Positions 41,719 through 48,697 of a stretch of DNA of 49,012 bases are shown piece by piece. The first letter of the stretch is position 1. Every line of letters starts with the position of its first letter. Under the pieces are notes generated by a model, which made no database searches, was not told where the DNA came from, and saw only the letters and a program-made list of their open reading frames with translations. The DNA comes from Deltaproteobacteria bacterium (GTDB taxonomy: Bacteria; Bdellovibrionota_B; Oligoflexia; Oligoflexales; CAIYRB01): positions 1 to 49,012 of the forward strand of contig VGTI01000031.1 in the NCBI GenBank assembly GCA_016874735.1. Reading direction: 5' to 3'. Both the position numbers and the translations under genes were made by a program.

Positions 41719-42690
41719 CTAATTGACAGACCCAGTGGTTAAGAATCGCCAAATCTGCTGGTCAGCCCCCGTGAAACGGGGCCAATCGTGGGGATTTGCA
41801 CCAGTCTTTACCTTCCAAGGGCAGAACGCCACCGCAGTAGTCTTCGGGCAATTCGGTACCAAGTAGCAGGTAGCCGGCTCTTGCGCCGTCAGTTGCTGAT
41901 TTGTAGCCAGTGGACAACCAGAGTCCTGGGTCATCTTGGCCAAGGTTTGCTGGGCACTTCGAAAATTATCCCGGTCATCTTGGATCAGCATGCTAGGGAC
42001 ATTGACCTTACGCCAAGCGGCCCCAACTGCTGGAATGGCCACGGCGACAGCGCCCTTGATCTTGTCACCCCGAATACTCGTCAGATAGTTGGCGAACGTA
42101 CCACCGTTACTCACCCCGATCGTATAGACTTTACGTAGATCGACACAGAAGTCCTGGATCGCTTGCTGGTACAACTGGTCAAAGAACTGCACGTCGCGGC
42201 CGTTGTCCCGACGCTCCCAGGTCAAATTCGTGCCTTGAATATGCCTTGGATGGATCCAAACGGCATCGTTAGCGGTTAACGCCTCGAGATTTGGCGCATG
42301 ATTAAAGTCAGGTGTGGCACGCGTCTTCTCTACCGACGAAGCGGCTCCGTACCACCAGAATACCAACGCCAGCGGTTTACCCGGGGTAACTTGAGCCGGG
42401 GCTACCCGAAGATAGGCACGCGCCTGGGTGGCTACGGTTAACTTGAGGTCTTCCACGCCGCGCCCTACCGTCGGTTTACCACACCCTGGGGATTTTACGG
42501 CATCTGGATAAGTGGGGGGTGGTGGTACAGAAGTAACCGGTTTTTGTTTAGGTCGGTCCTTAGCGTCGAGCTCACTTGTCGTTACCCTTGGAGGCTCGGG
42601 GTTACCCTCCTTATCGGTCGAGCGGCAACTCGCAGCCGCGTACGTCAACAGTGTAAAGAGCATGATCGCCGCAGTCCTAAACTGAGTCAT
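41719..42690 (-). CDS. PHB-depolymerase-like esterase lipoprotein
   Basis: This encodes a 323-residue exported esterase. The signal AAIMLFTLLTYAAASCRS is a lipoprotein signal, followed by a Pro/Lys-rich linker to about 70. The catalytic elbow is IGVSNGGTF, with late LIQDDRDNF and NPHDWPRF for Asp and His. Cys pairs (GCGKP, DFCVDL, SGCPLA, ATCYLVPNC) suggest disulfides. The family includes poly(3-hydroxybutyrate) depolymerases and feruloyl esterases. A second member lies at 47759-48697. Confidence 0.75.
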   Translation of the reverse strand: MTQFRTAAIMLFTLLTYAAASCRSTDKEGNPEPPRVTTSELDAKDRPKQKPVTSVPPPPTYPDAVKSPGCGKPTVGRGVEDLKLTVATQARAYLRVAPAQVTPGKPLALVFWWYGAASSVEKTRATPDFNHAPNLEALTANDAVWIHPRHIQGTNLTWERRDNGRDVQFFDQLYQQAIQDFCVDLRKVYTIGVSNGGTFANYLTSIRGDKIKGAVAVAIPAVGAAWRKVNVPSMLIQDDRDNFRSAQQTLAKMTQDSGCPLATNQQLTAQEPATCYLVPNCPKTTAVAFCPWKVKTGANPHDWPRFTGADQQIWRFLTTGSVN

Positions 42691-42847: not shown

Positions 42848-43894
42848 ATGACCATATGTTTAGCAACAACGGTAACGGCAAGAAGGGCCTACGACCTAGT
42901 GAATGAGTTGCAGGCATACTTTGTATCTAAACTTGATGCCCTACCCGAGCCGGTACAGGGGTCACGTTTTAATCCGGCTAGCTGGCTGAGAGCCGGTGGC
43001 AAATTTGGTGGGGGCACGCGATTCATCGCTACCGATGAACAGCTATTTAATCGCGCCTCGGTCAACGTGTCGCAGATTCAATACGAAAACGATGCTACAA
43101 AAAAAATGGCTTCGGCAACGGCGCTATCGACTATCGTCCACCCACGTCGCCCAGATATGCCATCGATGCACATGCATATAAGCTGGACCGAGATGAAGGA
43201 TGGTAGTGGCTACTGGCGCGTGATGGGGGATCTAAATCCAGCCTTACCAGATGCTGATGATAAATCCCTATTTGAACAGGCATTCGTTGATGCAGTCGGA
43301 CGTGAGCTCTGCACTTACGGAATGGCGCAGGGAGCGGAATACTTTTATATCCCGGCACTTAAGCGCCATCGCGGTGTTGCGCACTTTTATCTGGAGGCCC
43401 ACACGAGCGGCGTCTTCGATGCTGATCTAACCATGGCCGGGCGCTTTGGCCGCACCGTCATCGAAACTTATCACAAGATCAGTCTCAGTCACTTGGGGTC
43501 ACCGAGCACTCTCACCCCGAGTGACTGGGCTGCTCAGTTGGCTTACCATAGTATTTATTTTCTCCAAGTGTTGACACTGGACCGTGGGACGACATCGGGA
43601 CTGCTTGTACATGCAGAAAATGACGTCGGCATTTTGGGTTCGCTTCCCTCGCATGTAGACAAGGCGCTACTCCGCTCGTGCGTACCCCAGTTGCCAAAGC
43701 TCCAGCAGACACTGCTCTCAAACTTACTTGATGTCCTGCCTGACGCTCCCAAAAGCCTTGTCGACGATGCGGTCAAGGCTAAACTAGCAACCGTTGTGCG
43801 CCAGTTTTATCAGGAACATCCGGAGGCTCAAGAATTGATGGCTAGGGCCGACAGACTTGCCCCTACGCAGCAGAATCATCGCGGAGCAGAGTAG
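42848..43894 (+). CDS. hemF: Oxygen-dependent coproporphyrinogen III oxidase HemF
   Basis: This encodes a 348-residue HemF, which converts coproporphyrinogen III to protoporphyrinogen IX in heme synthesis using oxygen. Visible family parts are FGGGTRFIATDEQLFNRASV, SVNVSQIQY, STIVHPRRPDMPSMHMHISW, ALKRHRGVAHFYLEAH and FGRTVIETYHKI. It is longer and more diverged than E. coli HemF (about 300 residues), with an extra C-terminal segment. GAGG lies seven bases before ATG 42848. The 3' end overlaps the convergent GH31 gene by 32 bases. Confidence 0.85.
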   Translation: MTICLATTVTARRAYDLVNELQAYFVSKLDALPEPVQGSRFNPASWLRAGGKFGGGTRFIATDEQLFNRASVNVSQIQYENDATKKMASATALSTIVHPRRPDMPSMHMHISWTEMKDGSGYWRVMGDLNPALPDADDKSLFEQAFVDAVGRELCTYGMAQGAEYFYIPALKRHRGVAHFYLEAHTSGVFDADLTMAGRFGRTVIETYHKISLSHLGSPSTLTPSDWAAQLAYHSIYFLQVLTLDRGTTSGLLVHAENDVGILGSLPSHVDKALLRSCVPQLPKLQQTLLSNLLDVLPDAPKSLVDDAVKAKLATVVRQFYQEHPEAQELMARADRLAPTQQNHRGAE

Positions 43895-46115
43895 TTAATC
43901 GCGGTAACCACTCTGGCTGTGGTGCCGCAACATCTCGCTCGTGAAAAAATACGGCAGGCTTGCCAATCGGAGCTTGAACGCGGTGCCACCCCTGGCGGAA
44001 GAGCTGCCCGGAAACGATATGACGCCAGTGTCCTGGTGGCAGGTAGCAACTCACCGTATCACGACGCGGCCGCACAACTGGACACACCAAGAGATCGGAG
44101 CCCAGCATGAATTCCCGATCGAGCGTGCGTGCCCCCGCATCATCGGGATACATCATGGTAACGGCACGAACTAGAGGCATCCCCGACGCTGCCGCTTCGC
44201 CCATCAGTGTTTGCCGGTACTCCGTCAGAGCCGCATAAATTTTGCTGAACTTGGTAAAATGTGCCAACGATTCGCTGTCATCGTAAACCTGAGCGTTCAG
44301 GCGCGGGATATTGCCCTCATGGGTACGCAACACAGCGCTGAACGCATTGAGTTCCGTCCAACGTTGGAGTAACTCCCGCGACCGATGAAACTTCAGGAGC
44401 GGATTATCAATCGTGGTATAGCCACCGGTATCACTATGATTCAAACTAAACCCGGTAAAGCCACCCGTCAGTAGTCCCGTGAGTGCCGACTGCAATCCGT
44501 CGTAACCATCCCATGACACCAACTGATCACCCAACCAAAAGAGTCGAGCCAAGCCTGGGCTACGGGAATAAGCGGAGCGACTAAAGATGAGGCTATCTTG
44601 CCAAAGCCCCTCATCTTCGAGTGCTTCGCGATTTACCTTAACCCACTCTTCTGGATACTGGTTATGGTAAGATTTGGCGCTCTTTGATTTAAGTTTAGCG
44701 TCGTAGGGCAGGGCCTCCCCAAAGTCAGCCATCCATCCGCTGGCCCCCGTCACCATAACTTGCTCGCGGAGCACGTTTTTGAACCAATGCCTTGCATCTG
44801 TATCAGTTAAGTCGATCAGCGCTGCCGCAAAACTCGTATTTTGGATCATGTAGGGCTCACCAGCATCGTTCATTACTAGGTAGCCTGACGCTTTGGCATC
44901 GCTAAATAAATTTCGCTTTACCACTGGTTTGGCACTGGGGTCCGCCAAAAAAGGATTAACGTAAGTAAGAAGTCTAACTCCTTGCGTTCTCAGTTCTGCA
45001 GCAAAAGCAGCGAGGCCTGGGTAACTCCCTTCATCTAACTCCCAATTCCACCAAAGCTGCGAGCCGAAAGTGGTCTGCCGCCTTCCGACCCAGTCTTGGA
45101 TCCACAAAGCGCTGATGGCCACGCCTGCCGTCCGTAGTTTTTGGTACACAGACCTAACCCGATCCAGGCCACCCTGTACGCCAACGATAGCACCACGGCC
45201 CACCCACTCCGGTAGCGCCTCCATCCGGCCGCTCCAACGGGTGTACACCTCTACCAGCTGTTTGTAGTCGCGACCAACTGCTAACCGCAGTGCCATATGT
45301 GGTGCAAACACACGAATATTGCTTTGGGACGGCCTCCTTAAGTCAAACTGCGCATACTCGTATTGATCAAGATATATGCCATAACCGGCACTAGACAGGT
45401 ATGCAGGCACAGTGGCGTAGCTACTTGACCAGTCACCCGCTACACCGGTGCCCTGCGTAGCATTGACGGCCCAAGACAGCGGCTGCCTCCCACGCCCAAC
45501 CCCCTGCTCCTCCGTAATAACTGGTATTAATGATCCCTTCAGATCAAATCGCGTAAACTGCATCCCAAATCCGTGGACTCGCTCACCCATTGGCGCGGCA
45601 TAGCGCAGCGTGACGCGATTAAAACTGCGTGGCATCGCGCTGTGACCAGACACATCGACCGCGAGGCGCTCGTCGTCTACCAGGTGAATCCTGATAGTCC
45701 AACTACCGGCGCAGCCCTTGCCACGAACGGTACCTGACAACAAAACTTCATCGTCTTCATCTTGCCAGTCTGAAATGAAAACCTGGTCGCACGTCACGAG
45801 CGAGTGATCCTTCACGGTAATGGAACCCCGCGCTTCGGTGATATGCTCTCTCCCAACGGAAAATGCGACAAAGGGCTCACCAGGAACCGTGTGCCAAATC
45901 CTGCGCGCGGCAAAACTTCGATGGCTTACAACCAGAGACTCAGCCCCACTTACGTCTCCACGCCACGCGACGATAAATGGACCAACTTCGCCTCTCAGCT
46001 CTTGCTGCATGGAGCCACTAACAACAAGATGTTGAGCATTTGCCGTTTGGGACACAAAGAACATCAACACGGCAAACGATAGCTTGTTGACCAAAGTGCT
46101 TGGTGCTAACTTCAT
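43863..46115 (-). CDS. Secreted GH31 glycosidase, sulfoquinovosidase-like
   Basis: This encodes a 750-residue glycoside hydrolase of family 31. A signal peptide (SFAVLMFFVSQTANA) targets it to the periplasm. The nucleophile Asp464 is in GWMADFGEALP, the acid/base Asp530 in WLGDQLVSWDG, and HSDTGGYTT and RTHEGN follow. The whole C-terminal half resembles E. coli YihQ sulfoquinovosidase. The position matching its sulfonate-binding Arg (in FGKR-type sequence before WNW) is Gln353 here, while the following Trp and the Tyr of GGY are kept. The substrate may therefore not be sulfoquinovoside. ATG 46115 is chosen over 46181 because it gives a clean signal and has GGGGAAG upstream. Confidence 0.85.
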   Translation of the reverse strand: MKLAPSTLVNKLSFAVLMFFVSQTANAQHLVVSGSMQQELRGEVGPFIVAWRGDVSGAESLVVSHRSFAARRIWHTVPGEPFVAFSVGREHITEARGSITVKDHSLVTCDQVFISDWQDEDDEVLLSGTVRGKGCAGSWTIRIHLVDDERLAVDVSGHSAMPRSFNRVTLRYAAPMGERVHGFGMQFTRFDLKGSLIPVITEEQGVGRGRQPLSWAVNATQGTGVAGDWSSSYATVPAYLSSAGYGIYLDQYEYAQFDLRRPSQSNIRVFAPHMALRLAVGRDYKQLVEVYTRWSGRMEALPEWVGRGAIVGVQGGLDRVRSVYQKLRTAGVAISALWIQDWVGRRQTTFGSQLWWNWELDEGSYPGLAAFAAELRTQGVRLLTYVNPFLADPSAKPVVKRNLFSDAKASGYLVMNDAGEPYMIQNTSFAAALIDLTDTDARHWFKNVLREQVMVTGASGWMADFGEALPYDAKLKSKSAKSYHNQYPEEWVKVNREALEDEGLWQDSLIFSRSAYSRSPGLARLFWLGDQLVSWDGYDGLQSALTGLLTGGFTGFSLNHSDTGGYTTIDNPLLKFHRSRELLQRWTELNAFSAVLRTHEGNIPRLNAQVYDDSESLAHFTKFSKIYAALTEYRQTLMGEAAASGMPLVRAVTMMYPDDAGARTLDREFMLGSDLLVCPVVRPRRDTVSCYLPPGHWRHIVSGQLFRQGWHRVQAPIGKPAVFFHERDVAAPQPEWLPRLTTLLRDDSAA

Positions 46116-47758: not shown

Positions 47759-48697
47759 TCACGTGGTCGTTATGAACTTCCAAACATCAGGCAAGGTAAA
47801 TTCCGGCCAGTGATGGTTGCCGTTCCAAGGACAGACCCACACTGGCAGTTTGGGGGCACACCCCTCGAGAAGCTGACAGGTATCAGATTTCAACTGATCG
47901 ATACTGGGAGGCACCTTACAACCGTTGGCGCGCGCATAGGCATTAACAGTACTCGGAGCATTGCCGTAGAACCCCACGTTCTGATCTTGCTTACCGTGGA
48001 TGACCATAACTGGCATCTTGGTGCCACCGCCGCCGCCAGCGACAGTAATCACACCGCGAATGGCAGAGTTACGGGCACTTGCCAGAGCGTTTACGAAGTA
48101 CGAACCGTTACTGAATCCATGCACAAAAACGCGTGCCTTATCGACACAGAGCTCATCTCCAGAGGCCCTCACAAGCTCGTCGAAAAAAAGCACATCCCGG
48201 CTGTTACCACCACCGCTCCAGGATCCACCCGCAGCATTTGCGTAAATAAATATCGCAGCATCTTGAGAAGACTCCTCAAGTGTCGTCCACTTGTGATCAC
48301 GACGCGGCGAGGTCCCGTCCAGCCCTAAACCGTGGTAGCCAATGATCAGGATGTGGCGCCGGTTGGGATCATAGTTAGGGCTCAGGTAGCGTAGAAAGGT
48401 TCGTTGCGCGCCATTGACACTAACGGAACCGTCGTGCAAGCCCAGGGCTGTCGGGGACTTGCCGCAGCCAGCTGAACCTGGGCCCGCATTGGCAGCCTGT
48501 TGACCGGGAATGCCAACCTGACCCGGTGGGTACGAGCGTCCACTGTTGGTGCCTCGCTGTGAGGCCTCGCTAGCACCTTGGGACCGCTCCACTGGATTAA
48601 TGCGGTTGTGGACAGCCGTACTTTGGCAACCCGAGACCAGAAAACCCACCCACAGCAAAGACGGGACTAGCGAGACCCGGCGGGGCTTACCATACAT
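47759..48697 (-). CDS. PHB-depolymerase-like esterase lipoprotein (paralogue)
   Basis: This encodes a 312-residue exported esterase related to the product of 41719-42690. The signal LVPSLLWVGFLVSGCQS ends in a lipobox, and a Gly/Ser/Gln-rich linker runs to about 80. The core has ILIIGYHGLGLDG, the nucleophile elbow HGFSNGSYF, VIHGKQDQNV with the likely Asp, and NHHWPEF with the likely His; the CPWNGNHHWPEF end parallels the other copy. GAGG precedes ATG 48697. The target ester is unknown. Confidence 0.77.
   Translation of the reverse strand: MYGKPRRVSLVPSLLWVGFLVSGCQSTAVHNRINPVERSQGASEASQRGTNSGRSYPPGQVGIPGQQAANAGPGSAGCGKSPTALGLHDGSVSVNGAQRTFLRYLSPNYDPNRRHILIIGYHGLGLDGTSPRRDHKWTTLEESSQDAAIFIYANAAGGSWSGGGNSRDVLFFDELVRASGDELCVDKARVFVHGFSNGSYFVNALASARNSAIRGVITVAGGGGGTKMPVMVIHGKQDQNVGFYGNAPSTVNAYARANGCKVPPSIDQLKSDTCQLLEGCAPKLPVWVCPWNGNHHWPEFTLPDVWKFITTT

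Follow-up and report, generated by a model that had tools for sequence, protein, structure and literature searches.

A putative exported GH31 enzyme of the sulfoquinovosidase type with glutamine at the position of the sulfonate-binding arginine of YihQ

For sulfoquinovose (SQ), a plant sulfosugar, an annual production of about 10 billion tons has been given (PMC10755693), and the known sulfoquinovosidases are described as retaining enzymes that act by double displacement, with a tabulated kcat/KM of 6.4e5 per M per s for YihQ (PMC11968277). The YihQ-type members of glycoside hydrolase family 31 (GH31) include E. coli YihQ (5AED, 5AEE and 5OHT), the enzymes of A. tumefaciens (5OHS and 5OHY) and E. 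rectale (6PNR), and BmSQase (8R56), and several surveys detect sulfoquinovosidases by similarity to YihQ. We take Arg301, Trp304 and Tyr508 to be the residues of the YihQ sulfonate pocket. Here we describe a YihQ-like GH31 gene at 43863-46115, on the minus strand of a 49,012-nucleotide stretch of contig VGTI01000031.1 (the window) from a Deltaproteobacteria bacterium of the order Oligoflexales. Its product has glutamine (Gln353) at the position of Arg301, and we read it from sequence and model, at about even odds (roughly 0.5), as an exported, periplasmic enzyme of the alpha-sulfoquinovosidase type that would hold the sulfonate by neutral groups.

The nearest relatives of the window enzyme, by sequence and by fold, were sulfoquinovosidases, in agreement with the initial annotation, which had called it a YihQ-like GH31 protein matching around the nucleophile, the acid/base and the C-terminal half. 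The best six phmmer matches in the PDB (8r56, 5aed, 5aee, 6pnr, 5ohy and 5ohs, 378-416 bits) are all named sulfoquinovosidases or YihQ, and the next GH31 entry, YicI, scored 129 bits. An AlphaFold2 model from a 29-row alignment (predicted local distance difference test, pLDDT, 90.1; predicted template modelling score, pTM, 0.90) had nine sulfoquinovosidase entries as its closest folds, with Z 53.5-56.4 and a root-mean-square deviation of 1.6-2.0 over 652-670 residues; the next GH31 structure stood at Z 39.4. Three Pfam domains (GH31 N-terminal, barrel and C-terminal) and two catalytic aspartates place the protein in GH31, and because both sequence and fold lie nearer to the sulfoquinovosidases it does not belong with the ordinary GH31 alpha-glucosidases or alpha-xylosidases. 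Trp304, Tyr508 and the Gln262/Gln288 pair (or Lys/Glu), which go with the YihQ type, are present. The sulfonate-binding arginine was tested for and is missing, and for that reason we do not class it among the canonical YihQ-type sulfoquinovosidases but see in it a variant. The features are given with their evidence in parentheses.

43863..46115, minus strand: YihQ-like GH31 glycoside hydrolase, Gln-type (Q262 Q288 Q301 W304 Y508, YihQ numbering), 750 amino acids (Pfam, phmmer, AlphaFold2 model)
46035..46115, minus strand: predicted signal peptide, residues 1-27, with Ala-Asn-Ala before Gln28 (sequence and hydrophobicity rule; pLDDT below 50 for residues 1-36)
45057..45059, minus strand: codon CAG of Gln353, at YihQ sulfonate-binding Arg301 (alignment)
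45048..45050, minus strand: Trp356, equivalent to YihQ Trp304, kept (alignment)
44418..44420, minus strand: Tyr566, equivalent to YihQ Tyr508, kept (alignment)
45174..45176, minus strand: Gln314, equivalent to YihQ Gln262, kept (alignment)
45096..45098, minus strand: Gln340, equivalent to YihQ Gln288, kept (alignment)
44724..44726, minus strand: Asp464, catalytic nucleophile, equivalent to YihQ Asp405 (alignment)
44526..44528, minus strand: Asp530, acid/base, equivalent to YihQ Asp472 (alignment)

The gene, for which the initial annotation gave no strand, runs over 750 codons without an internal stop, from an ATG at 46115 to a stop codon ending at 43863, and a purine-rich stretch, GGGGGA, is seen by eye 5 nt upstream of the ATG. 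The local alignment around the position of YihQ Arg301 is gap-free (FGSQLWWNW in the window enzyme, against FGKRVMWNW), which bears out the earlier statement that Gln353 replaces the sulfonate-binding arginine and leaves no other arginine in that place. The N-terminus (MKLAPSTLVNKLSFAVLMFFVSQTANA-Q) is signal-peptide-like, as had also been proposed, according to a rough hydrophobicity rule of our own that was used to score signal-like starts throughout. Against the NCBIfam 'alpha-glucosidase' equivalog model NF007746 (PRK10426) the protein scored 717 bits, with a cut-off of 553. Exported Gln-type proteins score above this cut-off and are therefore named as YihQ equivalents in automatic annotation.

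Glutamine is the rule among YihQ-like homologues and not an oddity, a point absent from the initial annotation. The homologues came from a scan of named genomes (80 loci), from searches of genomes ranging from the same genus to the same phylum and of other genomes, and from named references; four further groups searched at E 1e-80 gave matches in 47 of 296, 5 of 251, 2 of 321 and 11 of 296 genomes. A total of 151 distinct proteins span the site, and after 11 with other GH31 motifs had been set aside, the 140 YihQ-like proteins (window enzyme included) had Gln in 103, Arg in 36 and Phe in one. The named-genome scan used two peptide patterns, one of which permits only Gln or Arg at the site; a sampling artefact from this pattern was rejected, since Gln also leads in the motif-independent part of the set (44 Gln, 21 Arg and 1 Phe, n = 66, including one protein, L213, from a pattern-found genome). 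A lone mutation or sequencing error was likewise rejected, because a syntenic orthologue with 62% identity and 101 further homologues share the Gln, encoded by CAA in 34 and CAG in 68 (window not counted). Record titles place the carriers in Spirochaetota, Actinobacteria, Chloroflexi, Proteobacteria, Myxococcota, Cyanobacteria (Calothrix), Bacteroidota, Planctomycetota, Bacillota, Sericytochromatia and Oligoflexia-type bacteria, about ten phylum-level groups in all; most are metagenome bins, and named isolates, among them Evansella vedderi DSM 9768 (L073) and Pseudomaricurvus alkylphenolicus KCTC 32386 (L105), also carry the gene. No report of a Gln-type clade was found by title, abstract opening or count among the literature matches listed, a search whose reach stopped short of the YihQ structure paper (Nat Chem Biol 2016), the study of sulfoquinovosidase evolution (ACS Cent Sci 2018) and that of GH31 subfamilies (J Biol Chem 2023).

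The Gln-type proteins are mostly exported, as judged from their starts. A signal-like start was scored in 79 of the 103 Gln and 12 of the 36 Arg proteins, was lacking in 17 and 10, and could not be judged in 7 and 14 with too short a start; in the motif-independent part the signal-like starts numbered 36 of 44 and 6 of 21. Three of the four Gln proteins that fall in the cytosolic clade of the tree have no signal-like start. Export as the cause of Gln was not upheld, the relation being one of association. On a FastTree tree from which the motif columns had been left out, a minimum of 11 switches in the Gln/Arg state is required over 137 scored tips out of 139, a count that is independent of the root; rooting of the larger tree with L195 and L023 failed owing to long branches, and only the change count was used. 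One actinobacterial genome (G145) has one Gln-type and one Arg-type copy (L040 7837-9333 and 9719-12115, L047 9884-12145), and the Arg-type copy lies near an apparent sulfatase, judged from the protein start only. Three Arg-type copies (L063, L070 and L213), two of them with Met for Gln262, were seen in a Myxococcota bin, G152.

To see what else changes in the pocket, columns were compared between 99 Gln-type proteins outside the cytosolic clade and 21 Arg-type proteins of that clade, the groups being picked by hand from the tree. Among 46 chosen motif, pocket and neighbouring columns, only the one at 353/301 had different residues in the two groups at more than 80% conservation in each; within residues 100-729 only two more columns separate the groups likewise, both of them Phe/Tyr. 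Trp304 is kept in 99 of the 99 Gln-type proteins and Tyr508 in 95 (Phe in the rest), and Tyr508 is kept in 9 of 15 Arg-type proteins outside the cytosolic clade. After a turn to a plain CH2OH at C6 there would be little need to keep the rest of the sulfonate pocket, which is an argument and not a proof.

Gln-type genes also occur within sulfosugar gene clusters. Neighbourhoods were tested at 80 loci (79 and the window), with a flank of up to 10 kb; many contigs were shorter and some loci are Arg-type. In L086, a 6.6-kb contig of a Rhodocyclaceae bin, the Gln-type gene is cut at its N-terminus. It adjoins an SDR protein 57% identical to the SQ dehydrogenase of L120, a locus of the sulfoglycolytic Entner-Doudoroff (sulfo-ED) type, an aldehyde dehydrogenase sharing 53-59% identity with its counterparts in five sulfo-ED control loci, a SerA-like dehydrogenase, a lactonase fragment and an Ldh_2-family enzyme. 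The best NCBIfam match of the Ldh_2-family enzyme is L-sulfolactate dehydrogenase, with 186 bits where the cut-off is 500. Judged by these genes, L086 appears clearly to be a sulfosugar cluster of the sulfo-ED-like kind. In L047, from an actinobacterial bin, the product of the Gln-type gene has a signal-like start. The gene is transcribed away from that of a UxaA/SuyB-like enzyme, and the locus holds a GntR regulator, SerA-like and Ldh_2 proteins, a solute-binding protein, a fucose-isomerase-like protein and PFK; since UxaA-family genes can serve uronate pathways too, this sulfosugar cluster is probable and not certain. A Gln-type gene without a signal peptide (L183/L214/L232) is carried by genome G300, which belongs to the same phylum as a Leptospirales bin, together with a SqvD-like isomerase, both transketolase halves, RpiB, an aldehyde dehydrogenase, TauE, a sulfate-symporter family protein, MFS_2 and DUF4867; from its gene content this locus reads clearly as a sulfo-transketolase (sulfo-TK) cluster. 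DUF4867 (SqvB) is described from most clusters of the sulfo-Embden-Meyerhof-Parnas 2 (sulfo-EMP2), sulfo-transaldolase (sulfo-TAL) and sulfo-TK types (PMC9594981; see also PMC11968277). Other Gln enzymes of the cytosolic clade adjoin MFS_2 sugar transporters (L215 and L217) or, in L216, retain the regulator and the metallo-lactamase that are found in the sulfo-TK cluster of L220. A Chloroflexi bin with a Gln-type gene, G149, has a SqvD-like gene (26% identity) at another place in its genome.

At least one match was found in 26 of 35 control loci, weak transporter matches and query loci included, as the control set contained loci that had supplied queries; nine had none, among them the Arg-type L121, L199 and L201, and the test is thus not fully sensitive. 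Ten loci (L040, L052, L056, L058, L064, L069, L073, L075, L082 and L093) showed weak matches at 23-42% (homologues of ABC permeases, a generic SDR, PfkB, a dehydratase, transporters and aldehyde dehydrogenases) and were left out of the count of sulfosugar clusters, as were L048, L068 and L105, with single matches only. In Evansella vedderi (L073 12543-22046) the Gln-type gene adjoins apparent cell-wall sugar recycling genes (a kinase, NamZ-like, ABC transporter and NagZ-like), judged from protein starts only. A fumarylacetoacetate-hydrolase-family gene, 72% identical between the two, lies near the GH31 gene in both actinobacterial loci L047 (12158-12982) and L048.

Several observations weigh against a sulfoquinovosidase-type activity of the window enzyme. 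The arginine that it lacks is present in the three aligned sequences of solved sulfoquinovosidases (8r56, 5aed and 5aee) and in plasmid-borne sulfo-ED enzymes. At three further positions, beside the pocket motifs, the majority residue of the Gln-type differs from that of the Arg-type proteins: at YihQ 303 it is Trp (83 of 99) where the Arg-type has Phe, Met or Tyr, at 500 Leu where the Arg-type has Tyr, and at 501 Asn (79 of 99) where the Arg-type has His (15 of 21). Some sulfosugar match was found in 12 of the 80 loci, and only two, both Gln-type, were counted as clusters; the majority of Gln-type genes lack sulfosugar neighbours. The N-terminus of the L086 enzyme is lost at the contig end, so that its export is deduced from the tree, the L214 enzyme belongs to the cytosolic clade, and membership in a cluster is no proof of what its GH31 enzyme does. 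The initial annotation had noted that the usual sulfoglycolysis genes are missing nearby, and 41 query proteins from sulfosugar clusters indeed gave no match in the window at E 1e-4. In the genome itself SQ dehydrogenase (E 1e-30) and a SqvD-like isomerase (E 1e-15) were not found, with positive controls matched and with GH188, sulfo-SMO and sulfo-SDO outside the search; SQ catabolic genes, either as neighbours or elsewhere in the genome, usually accompany YihQ-type enzymes though they are not strictly defining. A YihS query, which had no positive control, matched nothing in any genome searched and so says nothing on this one.

We nevertheless consider that the window enzyme is probably a variant that works like a YihQ-type sulfoquinovosidase. 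By alignment with YihQ, Asp464 would attack the anomeric carbon and Asp530 would protonate the aglycone oxygen in a retaining double displacement. The sugar would be gluco-configured, probably with a sulfonate at C6, which the Gln353 amide, Trp356, Tyr566 and perhaps a water molecule would bind in place of the arginine salt bridge. In the sulfoacetaldehyde reductase IsfD no basic residue takes part in sulfonate recognition, which works through Tyr and Gln with a water as the bridge (PMC12133307). The likely extracytoplasmic substrates would be sulfoquinovosyl glycerol or sulfoquinovosyl diacylglycerol, and a host without sulfoglycolysis could use the diacylglycerol or glycerol but not the sulfosugar itself, feed its neighbours or take another route. 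Extended to the whole clade, the proposal is more tentative and, in our judgement, somewhat short of an even chance: the Gln-type proteins may form a second, exported GH31 sulfoquinovosidase branch with charge-free sulfonate recognition, found in about ten phylum-level groups under the name 'alpha-glucosidase' and enabling an extracellular attack on sulfolipid by bacteria that lack sulfoglycolysis, in which case the arginine would not be required.

The initial annotation had suggested that the enzyme shifted to another alpha-glycoside. The residue alone does not imply this, because Gln-type enzymes occur in sulfosugar clusters, Trp304 and Tyr508 are kept, and the Gln/Arg state has changed at least 11 times; the window enzyme itself may have a different substrate, with SQ dehydrogenase and SqvD-like isomerase matches missing from its genome. 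In its general form the idea is that the exported Gln-type enzymes, the window enzyme among them, moved to an uncharged alpha-glucoside such as alpha-glucosyl glycerol, glucosyl diacylglycerol or the ends of oligosaccharides, and that sulfoquinovose was retained or regained as a substrate by the few Gln enzymes that lie in clusters. Loss of the sole positive charge of the motif would fit such a move, as would the three shifted columns beside the motifs and the missing sulfosugar genes; most loci also have no common neighbourhood that could serve as a substrate clue (in an all-against-all comparison of 898 open reading frames (ORFs) around 77 loci, no family besides the enzyme was found in more than eight). 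Against this, Trp304 and Tyr508 would hardly be needed for a plain CH2OH, Gln and Arg toggle within clades, and the clusters hold Gln-type enzymes, and we regard the move as rather unlikely.

A substrate with another polar group at C6 is a more distant prospect. Alpha-glucuronosyl (diacyl)glycerol is a lipid that some organisms make instead of sulfolipid; Gln would suit a carboxylate or amide, and most pocket columns are unchanged. This is chemically plausible, but a Pfam scan of 19 other ORFs in the window showed no uronate gene, and we hold it improbable. Least credible, and very improbable in our view, is a weakened or inactive relic that retains the fold. YihQ-like homologues with one internal stop each, probably decaying copies, were seen in the same order (L010) and in the same class (L012), and within the genus the distribution of the gene is patchy; the window ORF, however, is intact, the catalytic residues are kept in the 62% identical syntenic orthologue, and 61 columns are invariant in 30 members.

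The GH31 gene is flanked on both sides by opposite-strand genes. A coproporphyrinogen-III-oxidase-like gene (42848-43894, plus strand; NCBIfam 92 bits against a cut-off of 297, Pfam 84 bits and above cut-off) meets its 3' end tail to tail with a 32-nt overlap, and the other neighbour is a META-domain-like gene, under the Pfam cut-off. The gene order and neighbours, the tail-to-tail overlap included, are kept in a genome of the same genus (G004/L038), with identities of 62% for the enzyme, 71-82% for five neighbours and 45% for the META-like gene, which indicates that the GH31 gene stands alone and was inherited with its place. No second YihQ-like gene was found in the genome, the sole other match at E 1 being distant (26%). 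Two related lipoprotein-like esterases, weakly similar to extracellular polyhydroxybutyrate depolymerases, flank the region (41719-42690 and 47759-48697, both minus strand).

Should the Gln-type enzymes act on sulfoquinovosides, this activity has a large exported reservoir that is annotated as alpha-glucosidase, and a residue by which the family is recognized is not diagnostic. Should they not, a large group with some other function swells the YihQ counts of the surveys.

Compared with the YihQ-type sulfoquinovosidases, the window enzyme shares the three-domain GH31 fold, the nucleophile, the acid/base, Gln262, Gln288, Trp304, Tyr508 and most of the other active-site columns examined. It differs in having Gln for Arg301, about 40 extra N-terminal residues, of which 27 are a likely signal peptide, a gene that stands alone, and only 31-34% identity over the aligned length. 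The NF007746 (PRK10426) model disregards the export, the lost arginine and the gene context alike. A similar situation has been published for an unrelated sulfoquinovosidase family, in which clades with one altered sulfonate-site residue lie within sulfosugar-type gene clusters. The contact there is a backbone amide and the authors' models leave the sulfonate site intact, whereas in the window enzyme it is the salt-bridge side chain that is altered.

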